A stretch of 64,000 nucleotides of DNA from NCBI GenBank assembly GCA_032871835.1, contig CM065299.1:93479152-93543151 (forward strand). Direction: 5' to 3'. Positions 11,291 to 47,620 of this stretch are shown here, piece after piece (the stretch's first letter is position 1; each line of letters starts with the position of its first letter). The notes beneath the pieces are model-generated. The model was given only the letters and a program-made list of their open reading frames with translations. It made no database searches and had not been told where the DNA came from. The DNA comes from Dipteronia dyeriana (lineage: Eukaryota; Streptophyta; Magnoliopsida; Sapindales; Sapindaceae). The translations under genes and the position numbers were made by a program.

Positions 11291-11890
11291 AATACTTCCA
11301 AAAGAAAAATTCTCTATTCGTTTTATATATATATTTTCAATTGGAAACAAGAAATTGATTTTCATATCGGTAACAAATTCATTTTTAATGCTTCATAAAA
11401 GAATCTGACTTATGGGTTTGTGATATCTTCATATTATTCGTAAATTTCATCAATACATAGATATATACATATTTTTATAAGAATAATTTATTTTTTAGTT
11501 TAAAAAAAAAATACTGTAAAAAAACCACAGATATGGTGAGAGATGGATGAAAACGGTATTCTATAATCTATACACGTACATTTGCTTGTACGAAGAAGTC
11601 AAAATTAAAGAGGTCTTGCTTTTAAAAATGGCCCAGATTCCAGAACACGTTTTGGGTGGTTCATAAAACACTTGAAACGAAAAACAGGTTTTTGAAAAAG
11701 TTAAACAAAAGTTTTCCACGACGACTATGAAAGATCATCTCAATTTCCTACGTCAAAAACGCAATATAGAAAAAAAGAAAGACCTTGACCATGATTGTGT
11801 CATTAGTTGAGCTTATATATGTTACCATATAGTACAAAGTCTTCTAAGAAGACACAGATCAGTTGTTGTGATTTTTTTGGTTGCCAAAAG

Positions 11891-14064
11891 ATGATGGGCA
11901 TGAATACAAAGAAATCACATGTTTCCATTTCTTATTCTGATTCGAATTTAGTGACATTAGTGGTGGTGTTGCTTTCACTGTGCTTTGTGCCAATCTTGGG
12001 TGAGCAGAAGCTGCGGTTTGGACGAAATGGGGAGTTCAAGATACTGCAAGTGGCGGATATGCACTATGCCGATGGCAAGACCACTACTTGCGAGGACGTG
12101 CTTCCGAGTCAGGTCGCTACATGTTCTGATCTCAACACTACCGCTTTCCTCAGCCACATCATTTCAGCTGAGAAGCCCAATCTCATCGTCTTCACCGGTA
12201 TTTCTTTTTTCTTTTTTCCGCATGTTATTTTGATGTTTGATTTACAAATTTAATTATAATTTAGTATATTTAGGTATGGGTTAGAGACCCATTATACACC
12301 CAAGTGGGTCAAACCCAAGCCCATGCCTATGACATACATGCAAAGCCCAAACATAAGCTTAATGAGCAGTTTTATGCTATATATATCGGTGTTAGAAACC
12401 GATTGAGATATAGTAAGAATACACAACAGAGAACAACGTGTATTGTATATGTGCATGAGTTGTCTGATATTGCAAGTATTATATATGCAATGTAAAGACA
12501 AAATGAATTTTGGTGTGTCTAGGAATCTATTGCTTGTATATCGTGTAAAAGAGGGTGCAAAACAATGCATGTGTGCAAGTTCATCAGAGAACAAAATAGA
12601 GAAAATACAAGTTAGAGATGTGGAGAAGATCTGTAGAATTTTTTCTCATCCAAGATCAAAGTGTGGGTTCTTGTATTGTGATCAAAGAGGACTTTCCGAT
12701 CGTGTGATCGTCCTCCGACCGGTGATATAGTTCCAAGTATTCGATCCCGTTTCCGTTGGAATTCGGATTTTCGATTGTGAACATTAATCCGAATTCGTTT
12801 TGTTTATATCGAATATTATTTACAATCCTGAAATATTGTACAAGTTTTTTAAAAAAAAAAAACTTATGTGCAAACTGTGCAACAGGTGATAACATATTTG
12901 GATCTGATGCCACGGACGCTGCAAAATCTTTGAATGCTGCGTTTTCCCCTGCAATTGCTTCAAACATTCCATGGGTTGTTGTGTTGGGAAACCATGACCA
13001 AGAATCCACCCTCTCAAGAGAAGGAATCATGAAACATATTGTTACATTGAACAACACTTTGTCTCAAGTCAATCCGTCTAATCAAACACACATTATAGAC
13101 GGTTTCGGAAACTATAACCTGGAGATTGGTGGGGTTAAAGGCTCAGGTTTTGAGAACAAATCGGTTCTCAATCTCTACTTGCTCGACAGTGGAGATTACT
13201 CCACGGTTCCTTCAATTCCTGGCTATGGCTGGATCAAACCCTCCCAGCAAATGTGGTTCCAAAGCACTTCTGCCAAGCTTCAGGTACTAATCTTGTGGTT
13301 TGCAACTACAAAGTAGGGGTTTGAATCTCAACATGGGTATCAAAGTTTACTCAGTAAATTTTAAAAAATTTACCCGGCTTTTTTTTTAATTTACATTTTT
13401 CTATTAAATTTTATCAGTTTGACTTCCAATCCTTCAAATTTGAAGAAGCTAACTTCATACCTAAGTTTACTATTTCCTAAATATTGTAGGGTTCACCGGG
13501 GACCCCGTTCTTGAACTCAAGTTTGCTATGCATATTCAGGGGATTTTTGGATTATCAAAATTATAATAATAATAGTAATGTTTGCAGGAGGAATACATGA
13601 GCAAGGCAGCAGCAACCGATGAGGATGGACCTGCACCAGGACTTGCTTACTTTCACATCCCGCTGCCTGAATATGCAAGTTTAGAGTCAACAAACTTGAC
13701 AGGAGTGAAACTAGAACCAGGAGGCATCAGCTCTGCTTCTGTGAACTCTGGTTTCTTTACAACCATGAAAACAGCAGGGGACGTGAAGGCTGTTTTCACA
13801 GGTCATGACCACTTGAATGACTTCTGTGGCAAGGTAATGGATATACAACTCTGTTACGGTGGGGGTTTCGGATACCATGCCTATGGAAAGGCAGGTTGGG
13901 ATAGGAGGGCAAGGGTGGTGGTGGCCACTTTGGAAAGAACACAAAACCAGGGAGGTTGGGGAAGTGTCGACTCAATCCAAACATGGAAGCGACTTGATGA
14001 TGGAAACCTAACCGCCATTGATGCTCAGCTTCTCTGGACCAAGAAACGGATCCCTACTGCTTGA
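11891..14064 (+). CDS. PAP29: Probable (inactive) purple acid phosphatase 29
   Basis: Metallophosphoesterase of the plant PAP28/29 group, expected to be secreted or in the endomembrane system. Three exons: 11891-12197, 12886-13283, 13588-14064, all with GT-AG introns in frame, giving 393 aa, close to the family length. A hydrophobic N-terminal segment (LVTLVVVLLSLCFVPILG) fits a signal peptide. Metal-site blocks appear in order: ADMHY, TGDNIFG (restored across intron 1), GNHDQE, FHIPLPE and GHDHLNDFCG. The family is called 'inactive' because one usual metal-ligand block is changed; activity cannot be judged here. I chose the first ATG of MMGMNTKK because it places the hydrophobic segment near the N-terminus. 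An in-frame ATG at 11819 would add 24 residues. Intron 1 (688 bp) and intron 2 hold repeat-like DNA. Confidence 0.93.
12250..12840. repeat. Repeat-like insert in PAP29 intron 1
   Basis: Most of intron 1 has the look of a retroelement LTR remnant, for example 'gtatgggttagagaccca' and 'gatcgtgtgatcgtcctccgaccggtga'. I could not fix its ends or a target duplication. Other introns at this position in the family are short, by general expectation, which suggests an insertion. Confidence 0.3.
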
Positions 14065-23199: not shown

Positions 23200-24720
23200 A
23201 TGAATTGGCATGGGCAGTGGGCGCCTGTTGTTCTAATGGTGGTCATTAACTTTGCATTAGCTACAGTGAATGCACTTATTAAGAAGATCATGAATGATGG
23301 AATTAGCAATTTGGTTATTGTTACCTATCGACAGACGGTGTCGGGTCTTTTCTTGGCACCCATTGCCTTTTTTTGGGAAAGGTAACAATTACTACTTTGC
23401 TTGCTTGCTCTGCAGTTGGTTAGTTGAGTAGTTTTTTTTTTTTTTTTAATTGCAGGAATAGTAGACCCAAGCTCACTGCTGAGATCCTGTGTCAGCTATT
23501 TTTCAGCGCCCTGATCGGGTTAGCGATACAAGCTCTCTTTCATGGGGATGTTATATTAAATTTATCGTCACCATTGTTGACTATGTTGATGTATAATTTC
23601 AGGGTAACACTGTCACAGTACACCTTCCTTATAGGACTTGAATATACATCTGCTACTTTTGCTTGTGCATTCTCAAACCTGGTTCCTGTCAGTACATTTT
23701 TATTGGCCTTGCCGTTTGGGTAAATTTCAAACAGTGAGAGTTCATACTTCATTCATCACTTTTAAGTTCATTTTGAGCAAAATTTTCACACTTGCTGCTG
23801 CAGTCTGGAGAGAGTGAACATGAAAAGCTTCTCTGGGAGGGCTAAGGTATTAGGTACACTTATTTGCATTGGTGGAGCTCTGTTGTTGACACTCTACCAA
23901 GGAAATCCATTAACCAAGCCACATGTAACAGACACGGATCGGATAACGACGATTCAGTCTACGAAGCCAAGGAAATGGGCAATTGGGTCAATAATTTTGA
24001 TTTTAGCCTTCACCTTGTGGTCTTCATGGTTCCTAATGCAAGCAAGAATTGGCAAGAGATATCCATGTCAATATTCAAGCACTGCTATGTTGTCCATCTT
24101 TGGTGCTATTCAATCAGCCATTTTGTGTTTGATCATCGACAGGAAACTCTCCAGTTGGGTTCTCAAAGGCAAATTAGATATAACAACTGTTATATATTCC
24201 GTAAGTATATAGCAATTCTCCATTAATTTTTTGGAAATATTAAACCGATCGAGACTGTCGTATACTGAGGATCAGTATGTGTTTACAGGGCATGGTGGGA
24301 TCAGGCTTGTGCTATGTTGGGATGTCATGGTGTGTCAAACAAAGGGGTCCTGTATTCACATCTGCATTCAGTCCTCTCGTTCAAATATTTGTAGCTATGT
24401 TTGATTTTTCACTCCTACATGAACCAATATACCTTGGAAGGTTGGTTGTTTTCTTGAATCATTTTTTTTACAGTGTTTCCAGCTCCCAATATATCAGATT
24501 AAATTTTATGATGCTTTTGTTAATGAACAGTGTTCTTGGATCAGTACTAGTTATAAGTGGCATGTACATTCTCTTGTTGGGAAAAAGCAAGGAGATAGAT
24601 GAAGCTAAGATGAAACCAGCCCAAGTAGCTGTGCAAGGCCAAGAAGATGAAGAGCATTGTAATGGGAATGGGGTTTCACATGTCATTCCAATCACCGGCA
24701 TTTCGACAACAAATCCTTGA
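23200..24720 (+). CDS. WAT1-related (EamA-type) membrane transporter
   Basis: Member of the plant WAT1 family of ten-helix carriers; the founding member WAT1 exports auxin from the vacuole. The substrate of this copy is unknown. Six exons: 23200-23381, 23456-23518, 23603-23719, 23804-24200, 24289-24440, 24531-24720, giving 366 aa, the usual family length. All introns are short GT-AG introns that keep frame. Family blocks are present: NALIKK in helix 1, EYTSATFACAF and FLLALPFGLE in the first EamA half, LWSSWFLMQA and YPCQYSSTA in the middle, QRGPVFTSAFSPL and GSVLVISGMYILL in the second half. The C-terminal tail is hydrophilic. The 3' end and downstream flank are duplicated at 46162-47620. 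A smaller relative fragment is at 10398-10560. Confidence 0.93.
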
Positions 24721-25138
24721 ACATGGGACTGTCTGGCAGTTTATTCTGATAATGACCAAAAACCAACCAAGCCAATTCTCTTTCCAAATAATTCTTTTGG
24801 TGGTATGAAACATAACGTAGAGAAATGTATTAAAAGAATTGCTTTCTTGCTTGTTTTAAGTTTGAGAAACGGTAAAAGACAAGAATTATCATCATGTTTG
24901 GCCTCGGTCCCTTGCTACCAATTACCAAACCATCCGATGTCTGGCCATAATAATCATGGTTGGTCAACCAATCATTTGTTTCGTTATGGACAACAAAGAG
25001 TATCTCCAATTAAGTTTTAATTATATCAACAAATTAACGGTATCTCCTATGTGTAACACCAAATATTACACTAAAGGGGTGTAAAAAGAGAATCTTTTGG
25101 AAATGTTCTTAAACCAAATTTTTTCTTATTCTAATATA
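24721..25138. other. 3' flank of WAT1-related gene, present twice in the window
   Basis: Closely matches 46279-46591 joined to 47488-47612. The match ends at 'ttattctaatatat', where a TE fragment begins here while the other copy continues into unrelated sequence. It contains no gene. Confidence 0.8.
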
Positions 25139-27836: not shown

Positions 27837-29144
27837 AGGGTACCTCGGGATTCAAGTCTGTTGACGGGGTACCCCGAGGCATTAACCTAATGAGGTGGCG
27901 CTTGACCAATGGAGATGACGAGGTACCATTCCAGTGGCAAGGTGCTTGGTTGATCTAGTTGGAATTTTACGACCTCATATGAGCTTTACATGAATCTTTC
28001 TATCTATCAGAAAGGTAGAATACGTACCTCGACAGGAGTGCAGATCGTCGCCATGGTGCCTAAGTACCAACTAGGGGGTCCGTGAAGGTGCAGATACTTC
28101 GTCCTGCTTTGACAACGATGTCGAGATCCTCGAGTCGTGCTGGACCTGGTGCTGCGAGGTAGACCGCTGCGCCCGGGGTCTACCTAGTGCTTGTAGGTGC
28201 TCTCTACCAGGTGCTATTTTCCGTGGAAAATTCCCTTTGAGCCCTTGCCAAATTTGGATATTAACAGAAGTCCTCTATAGTTTGAACACCGGTGATTAAG
28301 TTGGGGTTGGAGTCAGATTTCCTATCTTGTTTAGGAAATTTTCCATTTTTGAATAGGTCACCAGAATCTGGGAAGAAATCTTCTCATTAAATGTAGCGGC
28401 CACTTGTCAAGCCAGAGGGATGTTTCCCATTTGAAAAGGGCAACGCTTTTGGCGGCATGCGGGAATCGAGGTGAAAATTTCATCTCCTCGATCACGCTAT
28501 CGTCATCGATCACTACAAAATCACTTCTATATAAGTCTGGCTTCCTCTTCACTTCCCTCACGCCTTCAAAAAATCCCTTCTTTCGAATTTCAAAATTCCT
28601 TAAGGTTTTTATTTTATTCGCTTCTCTCTAGCTTATTTTGTGTCTTTCTAACGTCAAATCCATCATTGATATGTCGAACCCCGATCACGATAGCATCAAG
28701 AGGTTGGTGGAAGGTGACTCCCCGAGGCAAAATTTATTATTTCCAATAAAAACAAAAATAACCACATTTGACCAAAACAGAAACTGAAACCACATTCCGT
28801 CTAAAAAACGATACTGCATAAGTCTCTTTCAAACTCAAAAAATGGCCAGTGTTTAACAATAACCTAAAAGTTCCTATGGCCTTTATTGTTACTGTCTTGT
28901 CGTCGCCCATATAGATGAATCTTTCAGCATCACTTGGTTGTCGGCTCCACAGGCAACCCTACATAGACACACTTATGTGAGTGGTAACACCATAATCTAT
29001 CCAACAAAAGTGATTGGGTACAGAAGCTAAATTAAATTCAGAACAAACCAAATCAAGAAGCATACCTTTCTTGACACGCTAGTTGGCGTACTTGGGACAT
29101 TCTTTCTTCATATGTTTAGCTTTCTTACAAAAGTAACAGGTAAA

Positions 29145-32394: not shown

Positions 32395-32503
32395 ACTGTG
32401 ATGTCCCAACTACAGCTTCTTTTCCTCTTTTCCTTTTCTTGTCCTTAGAAACGGTTGCTAAGTGAGCACTTTCAGTTCTTTCTCGCTTAATCCTCTATTC
32501 CAC

Positions 32504-32875
32504 TTACACACAGTGAGATATGAGCTCATTAAGAGTCCATTTGTCCTTTTGGGTGTTGTAACTCACTTTAAATTGACCATATTGTGCAGGAAGTGAGATA
32601 AGAACCAGATGCACGAGCAGATCCTCATACAGTTCTAACTTTAGTGCATTTAGTTTGGAAACGAGTTTAGACATCTCCATGATGTATTCCATTACGTTTC
32701 CATTTCCTTTATACTTCATTGAAACAAGGTAGCCCAAAAGGGTACTTGTTTCAGCCTTTTTGTTCTTTACAAAATGTTGTTCTATTTCCTTAAAAAACTT
32801 CGTAGCATTTTTCTCTTTGGACACAGAACCCCTAAAGGTTTCCAGAATGGAACGTTTCATGATCATAAAACTCAT
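32504..32875 (-). pseudogene. copia gag fragment (copy A)
   Basis: A 123-residue frame with the copia Gag (UBN2) pattern: LVSMKYKGNGNVMEYI, then SLPAQYGQFKVSYN. Copy B carries the same stretch at 44327-44720 in broken frames. It has neither a true N-terminus nor the zinc knuckle, which lies beyond the hAT and solo-LTR insertions. Plus-strand frames over this stretch are antisense shadows. Confidence 0.85.
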
Positions 32876-33329
32876 GCAGATAGAATGGTCCCATCTCTAC
32901 ATGTTCATTTTGTCATTAGTAGAACTATTCACATTGAGAGGTGCAGGCCGTTCTTTCCGAGACACAAGCTCAAGATCCATGCAATCGAAAACAATCATAA
33001 TGTTCTCTTTCCAGATCTTGAAATTTATGTCATTAAGCATCAGAATGGAATTGATATTGACAGATATTGTTGAAGCAGAAGTGGTAACTGAATTGAGAAC
33101 AAAACAAAATTACAGGCTCACAATTAATGATCATGTCACAATCCAATAATATTCAATTAACAAATCCATACATGACATGATCAAACAATTCACACAATCG
33201 TGGGCCCTATCACAAGAAACCTAGCACAACATTGACATTTAGTCTTTGGACAAAAATATCAACAATAAGTGGTACTCATCGTGCAGTAATCAAATATTGA
33301 TAATTAATCATGTATAATAATAAGCCTGT

Positions 33330-34636
33330 TGACACGTCATAAAGAAGTGTTTCTACTCTCATGTATAAGAGTGTCAAATTAATAAATTAACAGGTAAGAC
33401 CGGGTCGAACCACTGGGAGGTTGTTCACTTGTCCTTATAGAATTAATTATCTAGATTAATTACTAAGCTTGTTATAAAATGTAAATCAATTAAATTAAAA
33501 CCGGGGCTAAGGGATCCACTGTTGCCTATTGGTAATTCGAATATGATCCAATAATTAATATTTACCAGATTAATTGGAGGGTATTCCACTCCACTGACCA
33601 TTCTCTGATAGATGTGGGTAAAGGTACCCACTATGTTAGACAACATCTGTCTGTCTACAGTGAGTCAAAACTCCACAAAAATCAGATGGGATAAACCACT
33701 CTCTGATAGATATGGGTAAAAGTACTCACTATGCTAGACAATATCTGTATGTCTACAGTGGGTCAAAAACTCCACAAAGATCAGAGGGGAGAAAGCAAAA
33801 CAATAATAAACTTACCATAATTTGATCATATTTTTTATACCAACAGTATCACCTTTGGTCCCAGATATATATAAAATTAGCCAAACATAATTTAACTTGA
33901 AAATATCTATTTTATTTAAACTGAGAATTTGAGAATAAAAGAGAGAGAATTTCACAAATCTAATATCAGATTTGGATTCAGAATGTCTAAATTAGGGGGG
34001 AGAGGTCCCCTATTTATACAAAATACAGATGAAAATTGACTATCTGATGAATTTAGAATGGAGCGTCAAGATTTCACCACCTCATCAGTGAACAGTGAAC
34101 AGTAAACGCATCCTTGAAAGTCAATAGTGAACAGGGCACCGAATTCTAGAATATGATTATCTGCAGCACGTGTACAGTGCACTCACAACTCGGGCCAATA
34201 GAATTGTGCCACGACATCGGTCAATAATCTTCTAGAAAGTCAACTATGAACAGTACACCGATTCTCTAGAATGTGATTATCTGCAGCCGCGTGTACGGTG
34301 CACTCGCAGTTTGGTCCAATAGTAATGTGCCACATCATCAGAAACAATGAAAGTCAACTGTGAATAGTTAAAATTACAAAAATGCCCTTCGTGGCCTTCC
34401 AAAGGTTTTTGACGTTCTAAACTTGAAAACGATGTTTGTTTTGCCATCTGACTTCTCCAAAATTCTGAATTGATCGAATTACCTCTGAAATACAAAGAAA
34501 AATACATTGATTACTACACCACACATTTATTAAAGCGAGCGAACGAAATTATGTCTAAATTGGGGAATTAATCATATTGGAAGTGTAAAATGGTGATATT
34601 ATCCCTTAGTAAACATACATTTTTCAACGTTAATCA
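33330..34636 (-). repeat. 3' LTR of LOG-carrying element
   Basis: Matches 38157-39481. It contains internal duplications: a 110-bp unit with 'ctctgatagatatggg' and 'gtctacagtgagtcaaaa' twice (33590-33790), and a 125-bp unit with 'agaatatgattatctgcag' twice (34140-34345). The text 'gtaagaccgggtcgaacca' near its edge is typical of a widespread plant gypsy LTR group. Confidence 0.9.
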
Positions 34637-34650
34637 CACCCCCAACCAGC
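34637..34650 (-). other. Polypurine tract of LOG-carrying element
   Basis: Minus strand GCTGGTTGGGGGTG abuts the 3' LTR. This is the plus-strand priming site and fixes the element's direction. Confidence 0.85.
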
Positions 34651-35960
34651 TTATTGCTAGTCCATAGCAACTAAAGCGAAAATTGTAAAAACTTAAATTC
34701 AAATCTCTGAACTACCAAATAGACAAACTCTCCCATACCTCTTTTCTCACCCTTTGACAACCAGTCATCAATTGAGTTATCAATCAAACTCTCTTGTGCT
34801 CAATAAAGATCAACACAATAACTATGAGATTCAATTGAAATCAAGCAACATTTTTATTCTGAAATATTATTAGGACTTCTTCCTTAGGCAGTAGTTTTAT
34901 TTCTTCTTCTTGTTTTTTTGGTTTTTTTTTAATATAACAAAATTAAAAACAAACATTCCATCTTTAATCCATGTAGTGAGCTTTAGGCCAATGACTCCCA
35001 AACCAGTTGGCGTTAAGACATTACGTGTTAAAACACTCATACGGGCTTAATAACTCGTATTGCAGATGTTTTTTTTTAATAGTACTATTTCCTTAAACTT
35101 TCTCTTTAACCCGTGTAACGAGCTTTGGGTCAATGACTCTCAAACCAGTTGGTCTTAAGGAATTAAGTGTTGAAATACCCCTCGAACTTAATTGCTCGAG
35201 TTAAAGAGACTATAAAATTGCACTTTATTCTCATCCAGACTCCACCATTTTACGCGAACACTCTATGCTTACTGAGGCATGAGGCCCGACTACTAAGTAA
35301 GTGTTTTGGTCACAACACACAAAATTATTATTATTATTATTATTATTATTACTACTATGTATTTTTTTAAACAAGACCATTGCCTTCGGTTGTTACCCTT
35401 GAATGATGTTTCAGAACTGAATGTCGTAAAATCTCAACTTACTGCACATAATCACGTGTCCATGTGCATGTGTGTCTAGAATAGTTCAAAATTTTTCTCA
35501 AGATGACTTAATGAACAAAAGGATTAGTCAATGATATCATAATGGAGAGTTTATAAATTTGGATAGTCAGAAGAGAGGAAAAACAAAATGCATCAGAACT
35601 ACAAAGATGCGTCTCAGAAGTATCTAAAAGATCTCCTTACTCGGCCATCTTTACAAAAAAAAATGATCAGAAGTTGTTTTTTTTTTTTCAAACAAAAGTT
35701 ATTGAATCAATTATGCCCCCCCCCCCCCCCCCCCCCAACCAAAACGAGACATTGTCCCCAATGTCTTTAGAAATAGGTAAGGTTTATAATATATCACCTG
35801 AACAACTTGAAAGACAACAAAATCCTGCAAACAACAAAAGAAATACTAAATAAAAGAAAATAAAATGCATAAAATCCATGGGACAATCACAAACTGAGAT
35901 TCAGATCAATTATGCATTTCTTGTTCTCTTTATCAATGGACCAATCTATTTTGGAGGTTG
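34651..35960 (-). other. 3' non-coding interior of LOG-carrying element
   Basis: No gene. A unit with 'gagctttaggccaatgactc' and 'caaaccagttgg' occurs twice (about 34977 and 35108). Also present are a (TTA)n run at about 35325-35350 and a 21-base C run at 35716-35736. Such short repeated text before the 3' LTR is common in large non-autonomous LTR elements. Confidence 0.7.
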
Positions 35961-35971
35961 AGGGATCTGGC

Positions 35972-36541
35972 TCAATAATTAAAAGCTTGTAACTGGTCAA
36001 TCAACTCATGTGGACTTGAAGCAGAGATAAAGATTTTTCCGATTGAAGGTGAAATGTAATAATTTTTCAGAGCATGATCACGAAATGAAAGCAAACCATC
36101 ATAAAATTTATTAACATTCAACAAACCGATGGGTTTCTCATGGATGTGTAGTTGCGCTCAGGATGCCATTGTAAAGATTTGTTCTAAGGTTCCAAAACCA
36201 CCTGGCAAAGCTATAAACGCATCAGCATGATGTAACATAGCAGCCAATCTTTCAGGCATACCTGAAACAACTAGCTCTTCGCCGTTTGTCTTTCCGATGA
36301 TGTCTGCTGCGGCCATAGGTTTTGGGACAATACCCAGAACTTGACTACCTCTGTCTTGTGCAGCTCGTGAAACACACCCCATTAATTCCAAGTTACCTCC
36401 TCCATACACTAGGTGTATTTTTTGGTCAGCCAAAACCTTACCAAGATGAGTTACAACATCAACAAACTCTCTGTATTTCCCATAATTTGTGCCACCAAAC
36501 ACACAAATGTTTGTGAATCGTTTAGTTGAAGATGATGTCAT
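35972..36541 (-). pseudogene. LOG: Intronless LOG copy (cytokinin phosphoribohydrolase), disrupted
   Basis: LOG enzymes release active cytokinin bases from their riboside monophosphates. This copy encodes about 189 residues from MTSSSTKRF to LQAFNY without any intron, whereas plant LOG genes have several, so it came through an RNA copy. It has the family order: ICVFGGTN, LVYGGGNLELMG, MPERLAAM, DAFIALPGGFGTLEQ, KPIGLLNVNKFYDGLLSF. Damage: TGA at 36158-36160 replaces the conserved Trp of the 'SWAQL' segment. The last residue of PGGxGTxxE is Gln instead of the catalytic Glu, and GGGxxGLMG has Glu for Gly. The conserved Arg of 'ER' remains. The frame also stays open upstream to 36640. It lies inside the LTR element, in the same direction, and is not expected to make an active enzyme. 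Confidence 0.9.
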
Positions 36542-36789
36542 TAATGCACTCTCTGAAATTTTCTTTTGAATGTTTATGAGTGCTTGCAGCAAAAAGGAAA
36601 ACAAATGCTTGTATTTATAGATCCCGAAAAGGTAACACAATGATACACCTATATGTATAGGGCATCGTATTTGTCAATGATATTAGATCCAAATGGTTCA
36701 AAAATCAAAAGTAAACAACAATAATTAAAAAAGACATTAAATGTGAAAGGAAAAAGATAATAAAAACAAAAGAATATTTACTGGTAGTT

Positions 36790-37400
36790 GTGATTGTGGC
36801 TCACATCTTTCTCTGGTTTTACGTCCAAAAACGACTTCATCGCCCTCTATGGGTCGATTATATGCTTCCCATCCAATTTTCTTATAAATTGGCAAACATG
36901 GTCTTTTAAAGTCATATTTCCAATACTATATTGTGCATGTTCTTTTTGAAATTGTGGCCATAATCGGTCAATTTGCCATTTGCACATATCCACTAGGATG
37001 TGCATCAAGAGTCGTTAGGATATTATCCAATGACTCCCTACGCAAACCATGCCTAATGAATAAAATTTTATCTTTCCGATTATTAGACACCATTCCTAAA
37101 GAACGACCATGTGTGTTGCAAGTTATTACATGCACATTTGTGACAAGTAACCTCTAACTTCTTAGCTCTTCATTTTTTTTACAATGTTACTTCTTCCAAA
37201 ACCAAGCATGTAAGATATAAATGAATCAACAGACTCACCTGCCAGACGTACCTTAGCTTCGATCAACCAGCAAATTTCAACAGGAATTTTGTTTATCATC
37301 AATAAGCGTAATCTTTCGAAACGTGCTTTGTAAATCTTTTTCAAAGCATTTTGAGGCAACGATGGAAAATGTTTTTGCAGGTTTGTGAAAATTTCGTCTA
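36790..37400 (-). pseudogene. Unrecognised decayed coding stretch in LOG-carrying element
   Basis: Upstream of the LOG copy in element direction. One clean frame of 65 codons (37162-37359) includes ARFERLRLLMINKIPVEICW and VDSFISYMLGFGRSNIV. After its stop the other frames continue with protein-like text (DRLWPQFQKEHAQYSIGNM, then FIRKLDGKH, then a stop), suggesting one original gene of 200 or more codons broken by frameshifts. I do not recognise the family; it is not an evident gag or pol. It may be a second captured host sequence or a gag too diverged to see. Confidence 0.5.
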
Positions 37401-38130
37401 TGCCTTGTTTTGGAGATCAGTTATTTGGAAAACTAAATTAAACCGACTTGAATTGTCACAGAGTACCGTTATCCGCCACTTAACCAGGGTTATATAGCAA
37501 AACACACCATGCAAAAATTGAACCTAGAAATTAATCCTGCGAAAATTCAAAACGTAAAAGTGAACAAAAACAAAAATAATAATTGTAAATACAAATAAAG
37601 TCAAAAGCAAAAGGTTTGTTTCCTGTTGGATGTCTAAGTGGGTTTTCAACCATGTTGTTGGTGAATGTGGGTTATTGTGATCTCCTAATTAATCTACCAC
37701 TAGATGTTCGAGACCAACGTCTCATGCAAATTTAATGAGGGTTCATGGAGGTGAAATACACAAAAATGAAGAAAATAAAAGAAAAACAAGATGCACAAGT
37801 CTAAGGGTGTAAAAGAAAATATACACAAGTGTTGGGGCAAAAGTGTAAATAATTATAAATATAGGGACTAAAGTGAAAATATGAAAATTACATGGACTGA
37901 TATGTAAAAATGAAAAATAAAATGACCTATATGCAAATACAAAATAGATCTAAGCTAAAATGTAAATAAAAAGTTAAAAGACTAAAATACAAAAATGTGA
38001 TTAATGATTACAGGTGCTTCTTTTTTTTAAGTGGATGAAGTTTATGATTGAGATGAATGATGCAAAACAGAATACAAAATAAGAAAATAAATTAAAAAGA
38101 AATTACTTCTACAAAGAAAATGCGGACTTA
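37401..38130 (-). other. 5' leader of LOG-carrying element
   Basis: AT-rich, no frame of note, A-rich on the plus strand with repeated 'gtaaaaatg..' text at 37800-38000. It separates the primer-binding site from the decayed coding stretch. Confidence 0.6.
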
Positions 38131-38150
38131 CCTCCCCGGCAGCGGCGCTA
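38131..38150 (-). other. Primer-binding site, tRNA-Asp type
   Basis: Minus strand TAGCGCCGCTGCCGGGGAGG, six bases inside the right LTR. It differs at a few positions from TGGCGCCGTTGCCGGGGA, the complement of the plant tRNA-Asp 3' end used by Athila/Tat-type gypsy elements. Confidence 0.85.
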
Positions 38151-38156
38151 AAAACT

Positions 38157-39481
38157 TGACACGTTCTAAAGAAGTGTTCCTACTCCCAAGTATAAGAGTG
38201 TCAAAGTAATAAATTAACCGGTAAGACCGGGTCGAACCATAGGGAGGTTGTTCACTTGTCCTTATAGAATTAATTATCTAGATTAATTACTAAGCTTGTT
38301 ATAAAATGTAAATCAATTAAATTAAAACTGGGACTAAGGGATCCACTGTTGGTAATTCGAATATGATCCAATAATCAATATTTAGTCCAGATTAATGGAG
38401 GGTATTCCACTCCACTGACCACTCTCTGATAGATGTGGGCAAAAGTACCCACTGTGCTAGACAACATATGTCTGTCTACAGTGAGTCAAAACTCCATAAA
38501 GATCAGAGGGGATAAACCGCTCTCTGATAGATATGAGTAAAAATACTCATTGTGCTAGACAATATCTGTCTGTCTACAGTGAGTCAAAAACTCCACAAAG
38601 ATCAGAGGGGAGAAAGCAAAAAAATAATAAACTTACCATAATTGGATCATATTTTTCATACCAACAGTATCACCTTTGGCCCTAGCTATATAAAATTAGC
38701 CAGACATAATTTAACTAGAAAATGGCTATTTTATTTAAACTGAGAATTTGAGAATAAAATAGAGAGAATTTCATAAATCTAATATCAAATTTGGATTTAG
38801 AATGTCTAAATTAGGGGGGAGAGGTCCCCTATTTATACAAAATACAGATGAAAATTGACCATCGAATGAATTTAGAATGAAGCGTCCAAATTTCACCACG
38901 TCATCAGTGAATAGTGAACCGTAAACGCATCTGTGAAAGTCAATAGTGAACAATGCACCGACTTCTAGAATATGATTCTCTGTAGCACGTGTACGATGCA
39001 CTCACAACTCGGGCCAATAGAATCGTGCCACATCATCGGTCAATAATCTTCTAGAAAGTCAACTATGAACAGTGCACCGATTTCTAGAATATGATTCTCT
39101 ACAACCGCGTGTACGGTGCACTCGCAGTTTGGTCCAATAGTAATATGTCATGTCATCAGGAACAATAAAAGTCAACTGTGAACAGTGAAAGTCAACTGTG
39201 AACAGTGAATAGTCAAAATTACAAAAATGTCATTCGTGGCCTTCCTAAGGCTTTTGACGTTCTAAACTTGAAAACGATGTTTGTTTTGTCATATGACTTC
39301 TCCATAATTATGAATTGATCGAATTACCTCTGAAATACAAAGAAAAATATATTAATTACTACACAACACATTTATTAAAGCGAGCGAACGAAATTATGTC
39401 TAAATTGGGGAATTAATCATATTGGAAGTGTAAAATGATGATATTATCCCTTAATAAACATACACTTTTCAGTGTTAATCA
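38157..39481 (-). repeat. 5' LTR of LOG-carrying element
   Basis: Second copy of 33330-34636, 1325 versus 1307 bp. It keeps the internal 110- and 125-bp duplications and a short run of 'gtgaacagtgaa' repeats near 39175-39205. Confidence 0.9.
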
Positions 39482-39979
39482 CCTTTTTTTGGACTGACTC
39501 ATTGCTCACATGGAGAGCCTACTAATTCTCACATATTTATCACCACAAACATGCCTAATATTTGGCCAAACAACAACCTCCCTTTGGATCGGCCATTATT
39601 TGCATAAATAGTTGACATGTACATGTTTATATTCCAAAATAAATAAATTTACATTATAAAGGTTACTTTGGCAACATATAATTTCAATCAATTTATTTTG
39701 AAACACCAAGCATTTATTTTCCAGAAGAAACAATCACATAGGTTTCAACATATAGTAATTACATGCATACTGATCAAACAAACATACATCTCAAGATTTT
39801 CAAAAAAAAAAAATACTGTAATGAACCCAATTGTATGAACATAATTTTTCATCAAATTAACTCACAGGTACTCACGTCTCCTTTTCAAAGACTACAGTAA
39901 TATGATATCTAACAAATTCAAAAGTGCTATAGGAATTTTTTACTCAACAATTCAACATGAGTGACTCTAATACCACTCT

Positions 39980-40478
39980 TGTAAGTTTCAGTTCCAAATA
40001 TCAGAAATTTCCAAACACAAATCTCCAATTAAAAAGGCCAAAATCATCATGTTGAACTATTTAGAACAATTGGTAAGAAGACACACCTGGATCCATGTTC
40101 ATAAGACAACAAACCGTGAGGTTGCCACAAGGGAATGAATGGCAAGGTCTTCCATAGCCAAATCCTCTCGAGTATTCCAAATATGCTCTGAGAAATTTCT
40201 GGAAAATAGGGATTCAAACTGAAGAGCAAATATTGTGTGTATATATATATATATAGGAATTGACTTGGGGACCATAACCTCTATCTGATTCTTTTAATTG
40301 GAATCTCATTAATCCCAATCCAATTAGCGTTGGGTCTCTACACATTTTAACCCATACCTAAATATAATTTTGGAGCCCATTAACATCCTAATAATCTTGC
40401 CCAATTAAGTTAGACAACCCATATCAAAATTGTTATTCAATATGCAGCCCACAATTGGAGATCAACCAAATATTAACA
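39980..40478 (-). repeat. LTR shared by tandem copia copies A and B
   Basis: Matches 45654-46157. On the minus strand it is the 3' LTR of copy B, with a purine-rich AGCCCAAGTGGAAGAT just before it at 40479-40494. It is also the 5' LTR of copy A, followed by the primer-binding site TGGTATTAGAGTC at 39963-39975. It contains a short (TA)n run. Confidence 0.88.
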
Positions 40479-40884: not shown

Positions 40885-43800
40885 CTAAGCATGCACATCA
40901 TTAATTAAAACAACACCCATATGAGCAGTGTGCTCATGAAAGACCTTGGGTGGTAAACTTTTAGTAAGCGGATCCGCAATCATGGAGTTCCCGATATGTT
41001 CTATAGCCACCTCATGACTCTGAACTCTTTCTTTAACAACGAGAACCTTGATGTCTATATGCTTCGACTTTGTGGAGCTTATGTTGTTGTTGGAATAAAG
41101 CACAACCGAATTATTATCATAATATATATTTAACGATATTTCAATACCATATATTATTGGCAGCCCATTGACAAAATTTTACAACCATATCCCATGATTA
41201 GATGCCTCATAATAGGCTATAACTCAGCTGCCATACCGGAAGAAGCTATGAGTGTCTATTTGGCACTCTTCCAATAAATGCCTCCCCCAGCTAACATGTA
41301 AATATAGCTCGATATGGATCTTTTACTGTCTTGGCATCCAGTAAAATCGGAATCAGAATATCCAACGATCTCTAAATGATCTGATCTCCGATAAGTGAGC
41401 ATATGATCTTTTGTTCTCTGCAAATAACGCATAGCCGATTTGGCTGCTTTCCAATGATCCATCATTGGGTTACTTAGATATCTGTCTAACATTCCCACTA
41501 TGAACACTATGTCCAGACGCTTACATACTTGAGCATACATAAGACTTCCTACAGCTAATGCATAATGAATCTTTTGCATTCCTTTCCATTCCAACTCATT
41601 CTTAGAGCATTGGTTGAGACTAAACTTGTCTCCCTTATTAATTGGGGTATCACCTGGTGCACAACCTTTCATGTTAAATCTATCAAGAATTCTTTCGATA
41701 TAGCTCTTTTACGATAACCCAATGATGCCTCGAGAGTGATCTCGATGTATCTGTATTCCTAATACGAAAGATGCATCCCCAAGATCTTTATCTCAAAGTT
41801 CTTGGTCAAAAATCTCTTGGTTTCGTGCAATAAACCTATATCATTACTAGCAAGCAGTATGTCATCGACATACAACACCAGGAATATATGCTTACTCCCA
41901 TTGAACTTATGACATACACAATAATTAACCTTATTTACCTCAAACCCATACGAGATAATGACTTGGTGAAATTTGTGATACCATTGTCGGGAAGCCTGTT
42001 TGACACCATAGATGGATTTCTTCAGTTTGTAAACCATCTTCTTTGGGTCACCGATTACAAAGTTTTCTGGTTGCATCATATATATCATTTCATCAACGTC
42101 ACCATTGAGAAACACAGTCTTTATATCCATCTGATGTAGCTGCAAATCAAAATGAGCCACAAGTGTCATGATGATCCTGAAAGAGTCTTTCGTTGAAACT
42201 GGAGAGAAAATCTCTTTATAGTCAACGTCTTCTTTCTGAGTGAAACCCTTAGCAGCTAGACGAAACTTATATCTCTCAACATTGCCTTTTGAATCCCTTT
42301 TGGTCTTAAATATCCATTTACAACCAATGGGTTTCACACCTTCAGGCAATTCGATAAGATCCCAAACGTTATTATCCTTCATGGATTTCATTTCATCATT
42401 CATGGCATCAATCCACTTTTGAGAATTAGAACTTTGTTTGGCTTGATGAAAGTTGATTGGATCATCTTCCATCACTCATATGTCACCCCCATATTCTTGG
42501 AGAAAAACAGCATAGTCATATGGAATCGTACTTCTCCTTTCTCTAGTGGATCTTCTCAATGGCATATCCTCTTGAGGTTTTTGAGTTTGCATTTCAGCAT
42601 AATTTCTTCATTTTGCATAAGGAGCTCTTTTACATTGTCTTGATATTCCGGATTTCCATTTCGAACAATGTTAGGAATGGAAACCTGATCATTATCAATA
42701 ACAACAGGAAGAGAAACAAATTCTTCTTCAAAAATAATATCGTTAACCTTATCTCCTCCCACAAACTCAACTTCCTCAAGGAAACTTATAGTTCATGTCT
42801 CAAAAAATGTTATAGCAGTGGGATCGTAAATCTTAAAGCCCCCTGACCATTCAAAGTACCCAACAAAGTAGCAACTCACAGTTCTCGAATCCAGTTTCTT
42901 TTCATTTGGCTTGTAAGGTGTTACCTCAACTGGACAACCCCAAAAGTGTAGATGCCTAATACTAGGCTTCTTGCTTGTCCATAGTTCATAAAGGGTTTTA
43001 GTTACTGCTTTGCTAGGGACCATGTTGAGGATATATGTTGCAGTCTTTAGAGCTTCTCCCCGGAGGGATTATGGTAAAGATGAATGATTAATCATACTTC
43101 TTACAATTTCCTTAAGCGTTCTGTTTCGTCTTTTAGCAACACCATTCATGTTGGGTTTGCCCGGCATTGTGTATTGCAGGACGATACCGCATTCCTCTAG
43201 GAATTTTGTGAAAGGTCCTGGACGTTGTTCACTGGATCCGTCGTATCTACCATAGTATTCACCACCACGGTCAGATCTGACAGCCTTAATTTTCCTGCAA
43301 AGTTGATTTTCAACTTCAGCTTTGAAGGCATTAAATGCATCCAGGGATTGAGACTTCTCATGAATCAGATATAGGTAACCGTACTTTGAATAATCGTCTA
43401 TGAATGTAATAAAATACTGTTGACCATTCCTCCACAAATATTAGTATGAATCAATTCTAAGACGCCAGAACATCTGTTGACACATAATCTTCTAATGTTT
43501 GTATACTTCCCCTTTATACACTCAATACAGACTTGGAAATCTATCAAACCAAGGGGATCATGAATTCTGTTAGACACAAGTCTCTAAATTCTCTATTTAG
43601 AGATATGACCTAAGCGCTTGTGCCACAGTGTGGCGAAATCTCTGTCAGTTAATTTTTGTTTTGTATCACATGAACTTTTATGCAAGGTTTCATTAAATGA
43701 GGCAATTATGTTCAACAAATATAGGTTATCATGTAAAGACAAAGAACCAGTACCAATAAGATTCGAATCTTGAAAGAGACTAAATTTATTATTTTCAAAG

Positions 43801-44190
43801 GAACAAAAAAACCACATTTGTTCAAAATAGAAACTAAAACCAAATTCCGTTTAAAAGACAGTACTACATAAGTCTCTTCCAAACTTAAAAAAAGGTCAGT
43901 CTTTAACAACAACTCAAAAGTTCCTATGGCCTCTACTGTAACTGTCTTGTTGTCACCCACATAGATGAATCTTTCAGTATCACTTGGTTGTCGGCTCCAC
44001 AAACAACCCTGCATATACACACTAGTTAGTAGTAGCACCAGAATCTATCCACTAAGTGTGACTGGATACAGAAGCTAAATTAACTTCAGAACAAACCAAA
44101 GCGAGAAGTATACCTTTCTTGACACGTAATTTGGCATACTTGGGACATTTCTTTCTTCATATGTCCAGCTTTCTTACAAGAGTAGCAGGT
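40885..44190 (-). pseudogene. copia pol polyprotein, multiply broken
   Basis: Read right to left it has the TNT1-94 order. A zinc knuckle near 44145-44190 has a one-base insertion. A protease-like stretch follows (43712-44038, with DTERFIYVGDN). Next come the pre-integrase motif WHKRLGHISK (about 43593-43625), the integrase core (43069-43437, FIDDYSKYGYLY and SDRGGEYYGRYD) and the integrase C-terminal part (42793-43023). Reverse transcriptase is at 41759-42475 (CKWIFKTKRDSKGNVERYK and the active-site YVDDILL). RNase H is at 41256-41672 (GYSDSDFTGC) with a tail at 40885-41103. Frame changes between these blocks and missing pieces make it a pseudogene. Confidence 0.92.
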
Positions 44191-44199
44191 AAACAGCTC

Positions 44200-44720
44200 A
44201 TCCTGCTTCTTTTATACCTTATGATATGATGTCCCAGTTGTAGCTTCTTTTCCTCTTTTCCTCTTTTCCTCTTTTCCTTTTCTTGTCCTTAGAACCGATT
44301 GCTAAGTGAGCACTTTTAGTTCTTTCTCATTTAATCCTCTCTTCCACTTGCACATAGTGAGATATGAGCTCATTAAGAGTCCATTTGTTCTTTTGGGTGT
44401 TATAACTCACTTTAAATTGACTGTATTGTGTATGAAGTGAGATAAGAACCAGATGCACGAGCATGTCCTCAGACAGCTCTAACTTTAGTGCCTTTAGTTT
44501 AAAAATGAGATTAGACATCTCCATAATGTACTCTCTTACGTTCTCATTTCCTTTATACTTCATGGAAACAAGGTAGCCCAAAAGGGTACTTGTTTCAGCC
44601 TTTCGTTCTTTGTAAAATGTTGTTCTATTTCCTTAAGAAACTTCGTAGCATTTTTCTCTTCGGACATAGAACCCCTAAAGATTTCCAGAATGGAACATTT
44701 CATGATCATAAAACTCATGC
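44200..44720 (-). pseudogene. copia gag (copy B), broken
   Basis: The longest frame (44327-44581) has the same Gag text as copy A: LVSMKYKGNENVREYIMEMS and QYSQFKVSYNTQK. A frame break near 44590-44610 separates the N-terminal part. Plus-strand frames here are antisense shadows. Confidence 0.83.
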
Positions 44721-45636
44721 GATTAGAACGGTCTCACCTCTCCATGTTTATTTTGTCATTAGTAGAATTATTCTCATTGAGAGGTGCATGCCATTCTTCC
44801 CAAAGCACAAGGTCAAGATCCATGCAACCGAGAACAATTATAATGTTCTCTTTCCAAATCTTGAAATTTGTGCCATTAAGCACCATAATGGAATTGATAT
44901 TGACAGATATTGTTGAAGCAGAAGTGGTAACTGAATTGAGAACAAAATAAAATTACAGGCTCACAGTCAATGATCATGTCACAATCCAAGAATATTCAAT
45001 TAACAAAATCATACATGACATGATCAAACAATTCACACAATCGTGGGCCCTATCATAAGATACCTAGCACAACATTGACATTTAATCTTTGGACAAAAAT
45101 ATCAACAATAAGTGGTACTCTTCGTGCAGTAATCAAATATTGGCAATTAATCCTGTCAAGTAATAAGCCTTTCTTTAGATTGACTCATTACTCACATGGA
45201 AATCCTAATCATTCTCGTATATTTATCACCACAAACATGCCTAATATTTGGCCAAACAACAACCTTCCTTTGGGTCGGTCATTATTCGTATAAATAGTTG
45301 ACATGTACATCTTTATATTCCAAAATAAATAAATTTACATTACAGAGGTTACTTTGACAACATATAATTTCAATCAATTTATTTTGAAACACCAAGCATT
45401 TATTTTTCAAAAGAAACAATCACATAGGTTTCAACATATAGTAATCACATGCATACTGATCAAACAAAATTACATCTCACGATTAAAAAAAAATAATGTT
45501 GTGAATGTATGAACATAATTCTTCATCAAATTAACTCACATGTACTCACGTCTCCTTTTCAAAGACTATAGTAATATGATATCCAACAAATTCAAAAGTG
45601 TTATAGGAAATTTTTACTCCACAATTCAACATGAAT

Positions 45637-45649
45637 GGCTCTGATACCA
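45637..45649 (-). other. Primer-binding site, initiator-Met tRNA type
   Basis: Minus strand TGGTATCAGAGCC, four bases after the 5' LTR end. Exact match to the plant copia consensus. Confidence 0.92.
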
Positions 45650-45653
45650 CTCT

Positions 45654-46157
45654 TGTAAGTTTCAGTTCCAAATATCAGAAATTTCCAAACACAAATCTCC
45701 AATTAAAAAGGCCAAAATCAGCATGTTGAACTATTAAGAACAATTGGTAAGAAGACATACCCAGATCCATGTTCACAAGGTAACAAATCGTGAGGTCGTC
45801 ACAAGGGAATGAATGGCAAGGTCTTCCACAACCAAATCCTCTAGTGTATTCCAAATATGCTCTAAGAAATTTCTGGAAAATGGGGGTTCAAAATGGAGAG
45901 CAAATATTGTATATATATATATATATATATATAGGATTTGACTTGGGGACCATAACCTCTATCTAATTCTTTTAATTGGAATCTCATTAATCCCAATCCA
46001 ATTAACATTGAGTCTCTACACATTTTAACCCATACCCAAAGACAATTTCGAAGCCCAATTAACATTCTACTAATCTGACCCAATTAAGTTAGACATCTTA
46101 TATCAAAATTGTTATTCAATATGCAACCCACAATTGAAGATCAACCAAATCCTAACA
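45654..46157 (-). repeat. 5' LTR of copia copy B
   Basis: Minus strand begins TGTTAGGATTTGG and ends AAACTTACA, 504 bp. It pairs with 39980-40478 (499 bp). A (TA)n run lies at about 45910-45932. Confidence 0.9.
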
Positions 46158-46161
46158 GACA

Positions 46162-46278
46162 GATGAAGCTAAGATGAAACAAGCCCAAGTAGTTGTGCCA
46201 GGCCAAGAAGATGAAGAGCATTGTAATGGAGTTTCATATGCCATTCCAATCACCAGCATTTCGATAACAAATCCTTGA
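46162..46278 (+). pseudogene. C-terminal exon remnant of a second WAT1-related gene
   Basis: Encodes DEAKMKQAQVVVPGQEDEEH and so on to ITNP and the stop, matching the tail of the gene at 23200-24720 (DEAKMKPAQVAVQGQEDEEH...TTNP) in frame with few changes and a two-codon gap. Everything upstream is missing: the copia LTR ends at 46157. All membrane-spanning parts are lost, so this is a dead fragment. Confidence 0.93.
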
Positions 46279-47620
46279 ACATGGGACTATCTGGCAGTTT
46301 ATTCTGATAATGACCAAAAACCAACCAAGCCAATTCTCTTTCCAAATAATTCTTTTGTGGTACGAAATATAACATAGAAAAATGTACTAAAAGAATTGCG
46401 TTCTTGCTTGTTTTAAGTTTGAGAAGTGGTAAAAGACAAGAATTATCATCATGTTTGGCCAACTACCAATTACATGTCCCCTCGGTCCCTTGCTACCAAT
46501 TACCAAACCACTTGATGTCTGGCCATAATAATCATGTTTGGTCAACCAATCATTTGTTTCCTTATGGACGCCAAAGAGTATCTCCAATTAAGGACCATCT
46601 ATTGTTGTAGCTTTTAAAATAATCATTGTTACTTGTGCTAAAGAAATAATCTGCTGTAAAGTTAATCAAACAACTGTTTGGTTAATGCTACTGTTGAAAC
46701 TGTTGTGGATTAAAAAACAGTATTCATGCGTTTGGTAAACTTTATCTTTAATTGCTGTGATTTTACATAATAACTAAAACATATATGAAATTAAATTATC
46801 AAGCAAATCAAAAAATTTCTTTTCATATCTCTCAATCTTAAACTCCCATAGCAACCGAAAAATCTATGATTTGATAGCATCAAGTCTAAAAAATTCCATT
46901 ACTCCTTTCTTTTTTTTTTTCACTATAATATTCTTTGATTTTTTTTACTTGACATGCGGATACATGTAATACAACACTTCAATCTTTATCACTTTTTTAT
47001 ATATTTTTTGTTGATTGTATTTTTTGATTAGTTTGTGATGGTAAAGAAGAAAAATAGTAGAGACGAATAAATAGATGGCAAAAAAGATGAGTTTTAGAGC
47101 TTTATTATAAGTTCCAAGTTTGAGCGTGTTCCAAAATTGGGTTGAGAAAATGAACAAATTGTTTTTAAAAATCTGTTAATTAATCTTATATTTAATCAAT
47201 TATGAACAAATAAAATAGAATCATATGAAATTAAACTTAAGATATATTTGTATTTATGTTAAGTCAATATGCATATTTTATTCTTTAAAAAATATTCATT
47301 AAATCAAACAGCAGATTCTATCATAATCACTTTACAAAAGTAACCCTCATCTACTTTTTAAAATTGTTGTCAAATCAACCCAGAATCTCAAATGATCACT
47401 TTTGAAAATTTTATCAAACATTTTTTTTATGTCAAAATTATTAAATAATCAAATTTTAACTTCTCAAAAACAATACCAAACAGGACCTAAGTTTTATTTA
47501 TATCAACAAATTAACGGTATCTCCTATGCATAGCACCAAATATTACATCAAAAAGAGAATCTTTCGGAAATGTTCTTACACCATTTTTTTTTCTTATTCT
47601 AATATATCCAATACCAATTT
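46279..47620. repeat. Duplicated WAT1 3' flank, interrupted by a Harbinger-like element
   Basis: 46279-46591 and 47488-47612 together match 24721-25138. About 15 extra bases near 46462-46485 and the 896-bp insertion are the main differences. The match fails after 'cttattctaatatat'. Confidence 0.85.
46592..47487. mobile_element. PIF/Harbinger-like non-autonomous element
   Basis: Starts GGACCATCTATTG and ends CCAAACAGGACC, whose reverse, GGTCCTGTTTGG, resembles Tourist/Harbinger ends. The target duplication is TAA (46589-46591 and 47488-47490). The other copy of this flank (about 25010) reads 'ccaattaagttttaatt' with one TAA, an unoccupied site. It is AT-rich and has no credible transposase frame. 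Confidence 0.8.

Follow-up and report, generated by a model that had tools for sequence, protein, structure and literature searches.

In Citrus sinensis, in C. clementina and, under a looser filter, in Populus trichocarpa, consensus sequences of gypsy long terminal repeat (LTR) elements have been reported to contain a YgdH domain, which is the LOG domain, in agreement with Steinbauerova et al., 2011 (PMC9289625, in the part of that article available). The account in that part comprises two sentences without anatomy. The same article describes gypsy elements of Phalaenopsis with an open reading frame (ORF) for an AlkB-like RNA demethylase, likewise a captured plant enzyme but a different one, with activity measured in vitro. 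The locus described here lies in a window of 64,000 nucleotides from Dipteronia dyeriana (Sapindaceae; assembly GCA_032871835.1, contig CM065299.1, forward-strand positions 93,479,152 to 93,543,151). It is a decayed copy of an LTR retrotransposon (33330..39481, minus strand) with an intronless LOG-like gene. It has the LOG-type domain in common with the Citrus and Populus elements, in a different host genus, and our evidence, unlike that for the Phalaenopsis enzyme, is drawn from sequence alone. The kind is already known, and Dipteronia is a further example with new detail: the position of LOG, its copy number, its open and broken frames, a subfamily with gag-pol deleted, and an altered pocket. 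What was a brief mention in the literature is now described anatomically, as a hormone-enzyme gene at no fewer than 150 places in one retrotransposon family.

The window element is very probably a non-autonomous member of a high-copy Ty3/gypsy family, with the history proposed below. The complete form of the family reads LTR, primer-binding site (PBS), gag, reverse transcriptase (RT), RNase H, integrase, LOG, polypurine tract, LTR. An LTR search of the host assembly (914 Mb, 78 contigs) gave 55 matching pieces (best 40 of 2661 first-look candidates), and 20 stretches were read around 11 LTR places. LOG was present, whole or partial, at seven of the 11 (L011/L012, L013, L015, L018, L021 near the end of the stretch read, and L017 and L024 as pieces); at L028 the inner side of the element lay outside the stretches read. 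Because these sisters share LTRs, PBS region and LOG, the presence of LOG in the element is not a matter of chance. Where the window passes from position 37624 to 37615, the sisters have some 5.3 kb of additional sequence, which encodes pieces of gag, RT, RNase H and integrase on the LOG strand (Pfam matches to gag, RVT_1, RT_RNaseH, Integrase_H2C2 and rve). The gag-pol frames are decayed in the copies read. In the complete sisters LOG lies 3' of integrase and in the same direction. One sister measured end to end (L011/L012) is 11.2 kb long, has CTATG on both sides and a Kimura two-parameter (K2P) distance of 0.085 between its LTRs, and its LOG frame is open over the 197 codons read. The initial annotation had described an element without gag and pol; this is right for the deletion subfamily, but complete members carry gag-pol plus LOG, and the idea that LOG is confined to elements that lack gag-pol was rejected.

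LOG copies are numerous, and the counts that follow are lower bounds. With the window LOG as query, all 40 scored loci, the window included, matched over essentially the whole length at 94-100% identity (best 40 of 788 candidates). A Xanthoceras LOG protein query gave near-full-length matches at 57-63% identity in 150 of 150 scored loci (best 150 of 1045 candidates), and by hand count the matched frame lacked a stop in 51 of these, a figure that does not exclude frameshifts. Among the 40 aligned copies, 17 were open, 16 had stops and seven were frameshifted or cut by the locus edge. Start codons in the open set include GTG (L042) and ATA (L056 and L057). Since the scored copies are the best-scoring and least decayed, open frames are over-represented among them. 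Flanks were compared for 13 LOG loci (L088-L093, L097-L100, L101, L102 and L104), and every one of these lay inside this element, L104 in a rearranged copy. Two expectations of the initial annotation, that LOG is cargo of an element family and that in some sisters with these LTRs the LOG frame is open, thus hold. A gene annotated in a genome as a cytokinin LOG gene can therefore be cargo of a retrotransposon. The closest database proteins to the element LOG by identity are Dipteronia dyeriana rows (70-89%). The annotated D. dyeriana proteins P0002, P0004, P0005, P0006 and P0102 resemble element-borne LOG by sequence; "hypothetical proteins" of Dipteronia occur among the closest relatives, and some rows are named cytokinin riboside 5'-monophosphate phosphoribohydrolase.

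The form without gag-pol is itself repeated. A 201-base query across the window deletion junction gave 34 rows that span the junction, the window and 33 others, and six that match on one side only (best 40 of 1835). As the same junction occurs at 34 places, the deletion of gag-pol was most likely one event, after which the short form multiplied. These data show a derivative with gag-pol deleted and the same junction in many places, as expected of a non-autonomous form, and they concern rows across the junction. In the window copy, the leader and the first 16 or so gag codons (37615..38132, minus strand) stop at the junction (37615..37624, minus strand), where about 5.3 kb of the sisters' gag-pol has been lost and about four bases (GTTT) are common to both sides. 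The remaining interior has no long pol-like ORF, and three minus-strand pieces gave no Pfam match, in agreement with the absence of pol noted at the outset. LOG was sought in six deletion-form loci, with 761 bases read at its expected site. Of the four LOG matches recovered there, two have stops, one has a 2-base deletion and one has stops and a deletion, so that the five short-form LOGs seen, window included, are all broken.

The window copy retains the anatomy of an LTR retrotransposon, with a direct LTR pair, TG...CA ends, PBS, polypurine tract and target-site duplication. The 5' LTR (38157..39481, minus strand, 1325 bases, TG...CA on that strand) and the 3' LTR (33330..34636, minus strand, 1307 bases) are 90.2% identical when aligned end to end, with a K2P distance of 0.074 over 1296 sites. 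At an assumed rate of 1.3e-8 per site per year, which is uncalibrated for the host tree, this amounts to about 3 million years. The PBS (38133..38150, minus strand, reading 38150-38133) agrees at 16 of 18 letters with the complement of what we take to be the 3' end of tRNA-Asp. Its place is unique in the window at up to three mismatches, and four sisters have one to four mismatches. A purine-rich tract adjoins the 3' LTR (34637..34650, minus strand). The target-site duplication reads CCTGT on the left (33325..33329) and CCTTT on the right (39482..39486), in agreement at four of five bases, and a paralogous empty site decides the matter. The element flanks (32418-33327 and 39482-40478) are duplicated locally at 44262-46157 with about 90-92% identity, and the duplicate holds the empty site CCTTT (45168..45172). 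Because the empty site and the right copy both read CCTTT, the changed base in the left copy is taken as mutated. The LTR pair, the tRNA-Asp-type PBS, the polypurine tract and the 5-bp duplication with an empty site were all features of the initial annotation, and each was borne out. Each LTR also contains a tandem pair of repeats of about 100 bases (33597-33797 and 38418-38615), and a second tandem pair, of about 140 bases, is present in the LTRs (34113-34368 in the 3' LTR).

The LOG-like extra ORF (35887..36541, minus strand) is intronless. It is preceded by a stretch without a long ORF between the equivalent of the sisters' pol end and LOG (36542..37614, minus strand), which includes a TATA-like CTATAAATAC (36620-36611, minus strand) 70-79 bases upstream of the LOG start. 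It is followed by a stretch to the 3' end of the element that is common to sisters (34651..35886, minus strand), within which a run of 12 A (35677..35688, minus strand) lies about 200 bases 3' of the LOG stop on the LOG strand. Pfam PF03641 matches upstream of an in-frame TGA with an E-value of 3e-18 and downstream of it with 2.2e-05 (25.1 bits, just below the cut-off of 27). The coding region first annotated is therefore real and runs in the element's direction, but its end is the stop at 35887, reached after a frameshift near 35972-36000, and not 35972. With the TGA at codon 128 (36158..36160, minus strand), which replaces the conserved prenyl-pocket Trp (W129 in CgLOG numbering), and the frameshift, the window LOG copy is dead. 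The stop at codon 128 occurs in six of the 40 aligned copies (the window, L018, L037, L043, L048 and L053). The TGA as a feature of the whole family was rejected, given the open copies and these six. LOG stops recur at codons 59, 128 and 168 in separate copies, perhaps by repeated C-to-T change at methylated sites.

The complete relatives place RT and RNase H before integrase, which is the Ty3/gypsy order; the window copy is itself without pol. The family is probably an Athila-like one of the OTA superclade. The part of PMC6317226 available gives gag, RT, RNase H, integrase order and an extra ORF between pol and the 3' LTR as features of the Athila/OTA clade. The Dipteronia elements have the same domain order and an extra ORF 3' of pol, which here is LOG and not PF03078. 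They also have a tRNA-Asp-type PBS, a trait that we take to be typical of Athila elements. A second, archaeal-type RNase H, which Retand (Tat) elements have and Athila elements lack, was not found in the 18 frame pieces scanned, a weak result as the pol pieces are broken. A protein search with the RT piece returned relatives in many plants, none of them named as a LOG carrier. Retand (Tat) elements likewise have a long region 3' of pol, ahead of the LTR, that carries an additional ORF, but Retand ORFs are antisense (PMC11963269) and LOG is in sense direction. The words "LOG", "cytokinin" and "lysine decarboxylase" are absent from the main text of that article, so far as it was available.

The element LOG matches AtLOG3 residues 6-187 (7.4e-54) and is of the same family as AtLOG3 (2a33) and AtLOG8 (1ydh) over some 180 residues. 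As in those two enzymes, PGGxGTxxE and the catalytic Arg and Glu are present in open copies; in the window copy the frame is broken at codon 128. All 17 open copies retain the catalytic Arg and Glu, the second Glu and the Thr. The motif's first Pro is retained in 13 of them, and the Gly at its second position and the Gly that precedes Thr in 16 each. For LOG enzymes (AtLOG3, CpLOG and CgLOG) the prenyl site is made up of Met, His, Lys, Glu and Trp, according to the accessible part of PMC4979012. Among the open copies Met is retained in all 17 and Trp in 16; the other three positions are changed, His to Pro in 16, Lys to Leu in 17 and Glu to Thr in 16, which differs from AtLOG3 and AtLOG8. Seven Xanthoceras proteins are canonical at all active-site positions checked, and seven named Populus proteins are, like the element LOG, without His, Lys and pocket Glu. 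Because the prenyl pocket is altered, a cytokinin substrate is not to be assumed for the element LOG. Its likeliest activity would be that of a nucleoside-5'-monophosphate phosphoribohydrolase with a changed substrate range. That the element LOG is or was active in the plant is possible, and we stop somewhat short of favoring it. The case combines LOG copies with open frames and with broken ones, a non-autonomous derivative, and a pocket change that is specific and can be tested.

LOG multiplied along with the element family. We propose that a plant LOG gene from the LOGL10-like group would have been acquired before the family spread, from a spliced RNA or from a gene that was already intronless. 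Copies that gave rise to others would have had an open LOG frame. The gag-pol deletion would have happened once, the short form then moving on the proteins of complete relatives, and each copy would decay neutrally after its insertion. Several observations weigh against this reading. The direct parent gene of the element LOG was not found among the host LOG genes reached. Not all sisters have LOG: of the 11 LTR places, it is deleted beside L010 and was not found in L023 and L026. In the L010 element a deletion of about 745 bases removed LOG and left a short word common to both sides of the join (L010:5670-5730), while both LOG flanks, with the TATA-like box and A-run, are retained; the L023 element breaks off before LOG (window position 35606) and L026 breaks off inside pol, with no further match in the stretch read. 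In the deletion-form sample LOG is broken in all four loci with a match, and two of the six have no match. Pairwise substitution ratios, given below, show no clear constraint on LOG. Finally, the Athila assignment is drawn from fragments, and no ATHILA (PF03078) match was obtained in the 18 frame pieces scanned, of which sister gag-pol supplied 15.

Two other accounts of how LOG entered the element were weighed against the proposed capture. Two host LOG genes were reached through a 36-residue query that found host exons; with a canonical LOG query of 75 residues, the 150 scored rows stayed at or below 59% identity and included no host gene. One of the two genes (L105, C2:119376369-119377825) aligns with AtLOG3 as five blocks, interrupted near query residues 34, 65, 76, 108 and 133, and several block edges have GT or AG. 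The other (L103, on C1) breaks at similar places, and the element LOG is continuous through all break positions of both. The initial statement that LOG genes have introns and the element copy has none is thereby upheld for these host genes, and the comparison fits an RNA step. The A-run after the LOG stop may derive from a poly-A tail, or it may simply be an A/T tract. It comprises 7-21 A in 16 of 17 aligned sister loci and three A in L013 (one of 18 loci, L099, was dropped for want of an alignment across the run). A T-run stands directly before it in several copies, and L010, without LOG, also has it. Because the sisters have the A-run too, it would fit capture of an mRNA at the level of the family, and not a later insertion into the window copy. 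Such an insertion, of a LOG retrogene into the window element alone, is improbable in the extreme: an A-run after LOG would fit a retrogene, but sisters share it, and they carry the same LOG at the same place on other chromosomes. It was rejected for this common position. The initial annotation had described what would speak for it, namely sisters without LOG and a LOG with its own poly-A tail and target duplication. No target duplication was found around LOG, which also speaks against such an insertion; the longest shared words are of 9 bases (reached in 77 of 200 shuffles) and, beyond the A-run, of 8 bases (138 of 200). This negative, together with the TATA-like box upstream of LOG, speaks for direct capture, at the DNA level and without an RNA step, of a host gene that had no introns to begin with and brought its own promoter. 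Related LOGs on metagenome contigs of about 1 kb are 217-aa proteins, which would fit intronless genes; they could be cDNA. Against DNA entry, the A-run follows the stop at a plausible length for a 3' untranslated region (if it is not a simple A/T tract, present as it is in the LOG-less L010), the TATA-like 10-mer is no more conserved than its surroundings among the 40 copies and is kept in L010, and the two host LOG genes have introns. We regard this route as unlikely. Capture of a gene that was already intronless may still have occurred. The nearest LOG relatives outside Dipteronia are from Xanthoceras, Populus (LOGL10) and metagenome contigs, at about 58-64%. In a scan for plant LOG relatives with context, viral contigs gave 24 loci at 25-49% identity and genome contigs gave three bacterial loci.

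What LOG does or did for the element is more evenly balanced. Our reading is that it is an accessory ORF that was intact while the family spread and is now decaying; about as likely, and in our judgment very nearly an even call, it was a pure passenger, captured once by chance, multiplied with the element and never of service to element or plant. The ratio of non-synonymous to synonymous substitution rates (dN/dS) for LOG is 0.66 among ten open copies, 0.64 among 17 copies (the first 20 less three that are frameshifted) and 1.03 among the window copy and four sisters. Diversity at the three codon positions of the 40 LOG copies looks neutral (0.0448, 0.0438 and 0.0487). Together with the broken LOGs of the deletion form and the loss of LOG from the L010 element, the ratio of 1.03 and the codon-position values favor a passenger. 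However, gag-pol, which must have worked in the parents, gives a pooled dN/dS of 0.93 (0.73 to 1.27 by piece) among those four sisters and L021, and because it looks equally neutral, dN/dS among old copies is without power to show constraint. Other observations run counter to a passenger. In 33 copies (the seven frameshifted or cut copies and eight multi-change codons being left out), non-synonymous and synonymous variants stand at 113:35 for singletons, 58:21 for variants in 2-4 copies and 6:7 for those in at least five. The last class differs from singletons (p 0.041), but all shared variants pooled do not differ significantly (p 0.29). The catalytic Arg and Glu persist in all open copies, and LOG in Citrus and Populus gypsy elements, as mentioned in the available part of PMC9289625, suggests long retention or repeated gain. 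Taken together, the evidence for selection on LOG is mixed and weak. A further possibility is that the gypsy LOGs of Dipteronia, Citrus and Populus trace back to a single ancient capture by a rosid element lineage. The LOG tree joins the Dipteronia LOGs with Citrus P0106 in a group of 14 rows, at 90% support in the Shimodaira-Hasegawa-like approximate likelihood ratio test (SH-aLRT), which is below the 95 mark. An 83-row clade (including P0018), mostly of metagenome contigs, holds the seven named Populus proteins (LOGL10-like), and this clade too lacks the pocket Lys. These placements, and the YgdH domains reported for Citrus and Populus consensuses in what is accessible of PMC9289625, argue for a single capture. 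Against it, P0106 (a cluster of 79 members) has a very long branch (0.62) and has lost the catalytic Glu, six metagenome rows sit in the same group, the Citrus and Populus proteins are known here as protein sequences and not in an element context, and the seven Xanthoceras proteins, from Dipteronia's own family, have a canonical pocket. We hold the single capture as a tentative alternative and lean against it. Rather a long shot is the reading that a rosid Athila-like lineage long kept a remodeled LOG, with a changed base pocket, as a working accessory gene that shifted the nucleotide or cytokinin pools of cells in which the element replicates, with the shorter form living off the complete one. 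If true, the Dipteronia genome would hold hundreds of remodeled LOG copies beside a parasitic shorter form that also bears LOG. The named poplar LOGL10-like genes may also be element cargo.

A tRNA scan of the window found none. Further local duplicates are present (24593-25014 versus 46157-46592, and 28724-29144 versus 43776-44193), and duplicates in the window have about 85-91% identity. By eye, frames at 41256-42475 (minus strand) resemble remnants of a Ty1/copia reverse transcriptase, those at 11807-14064 a purple acid phosphatase gene, and those at 23814-24720 a WAT1-type transporter.

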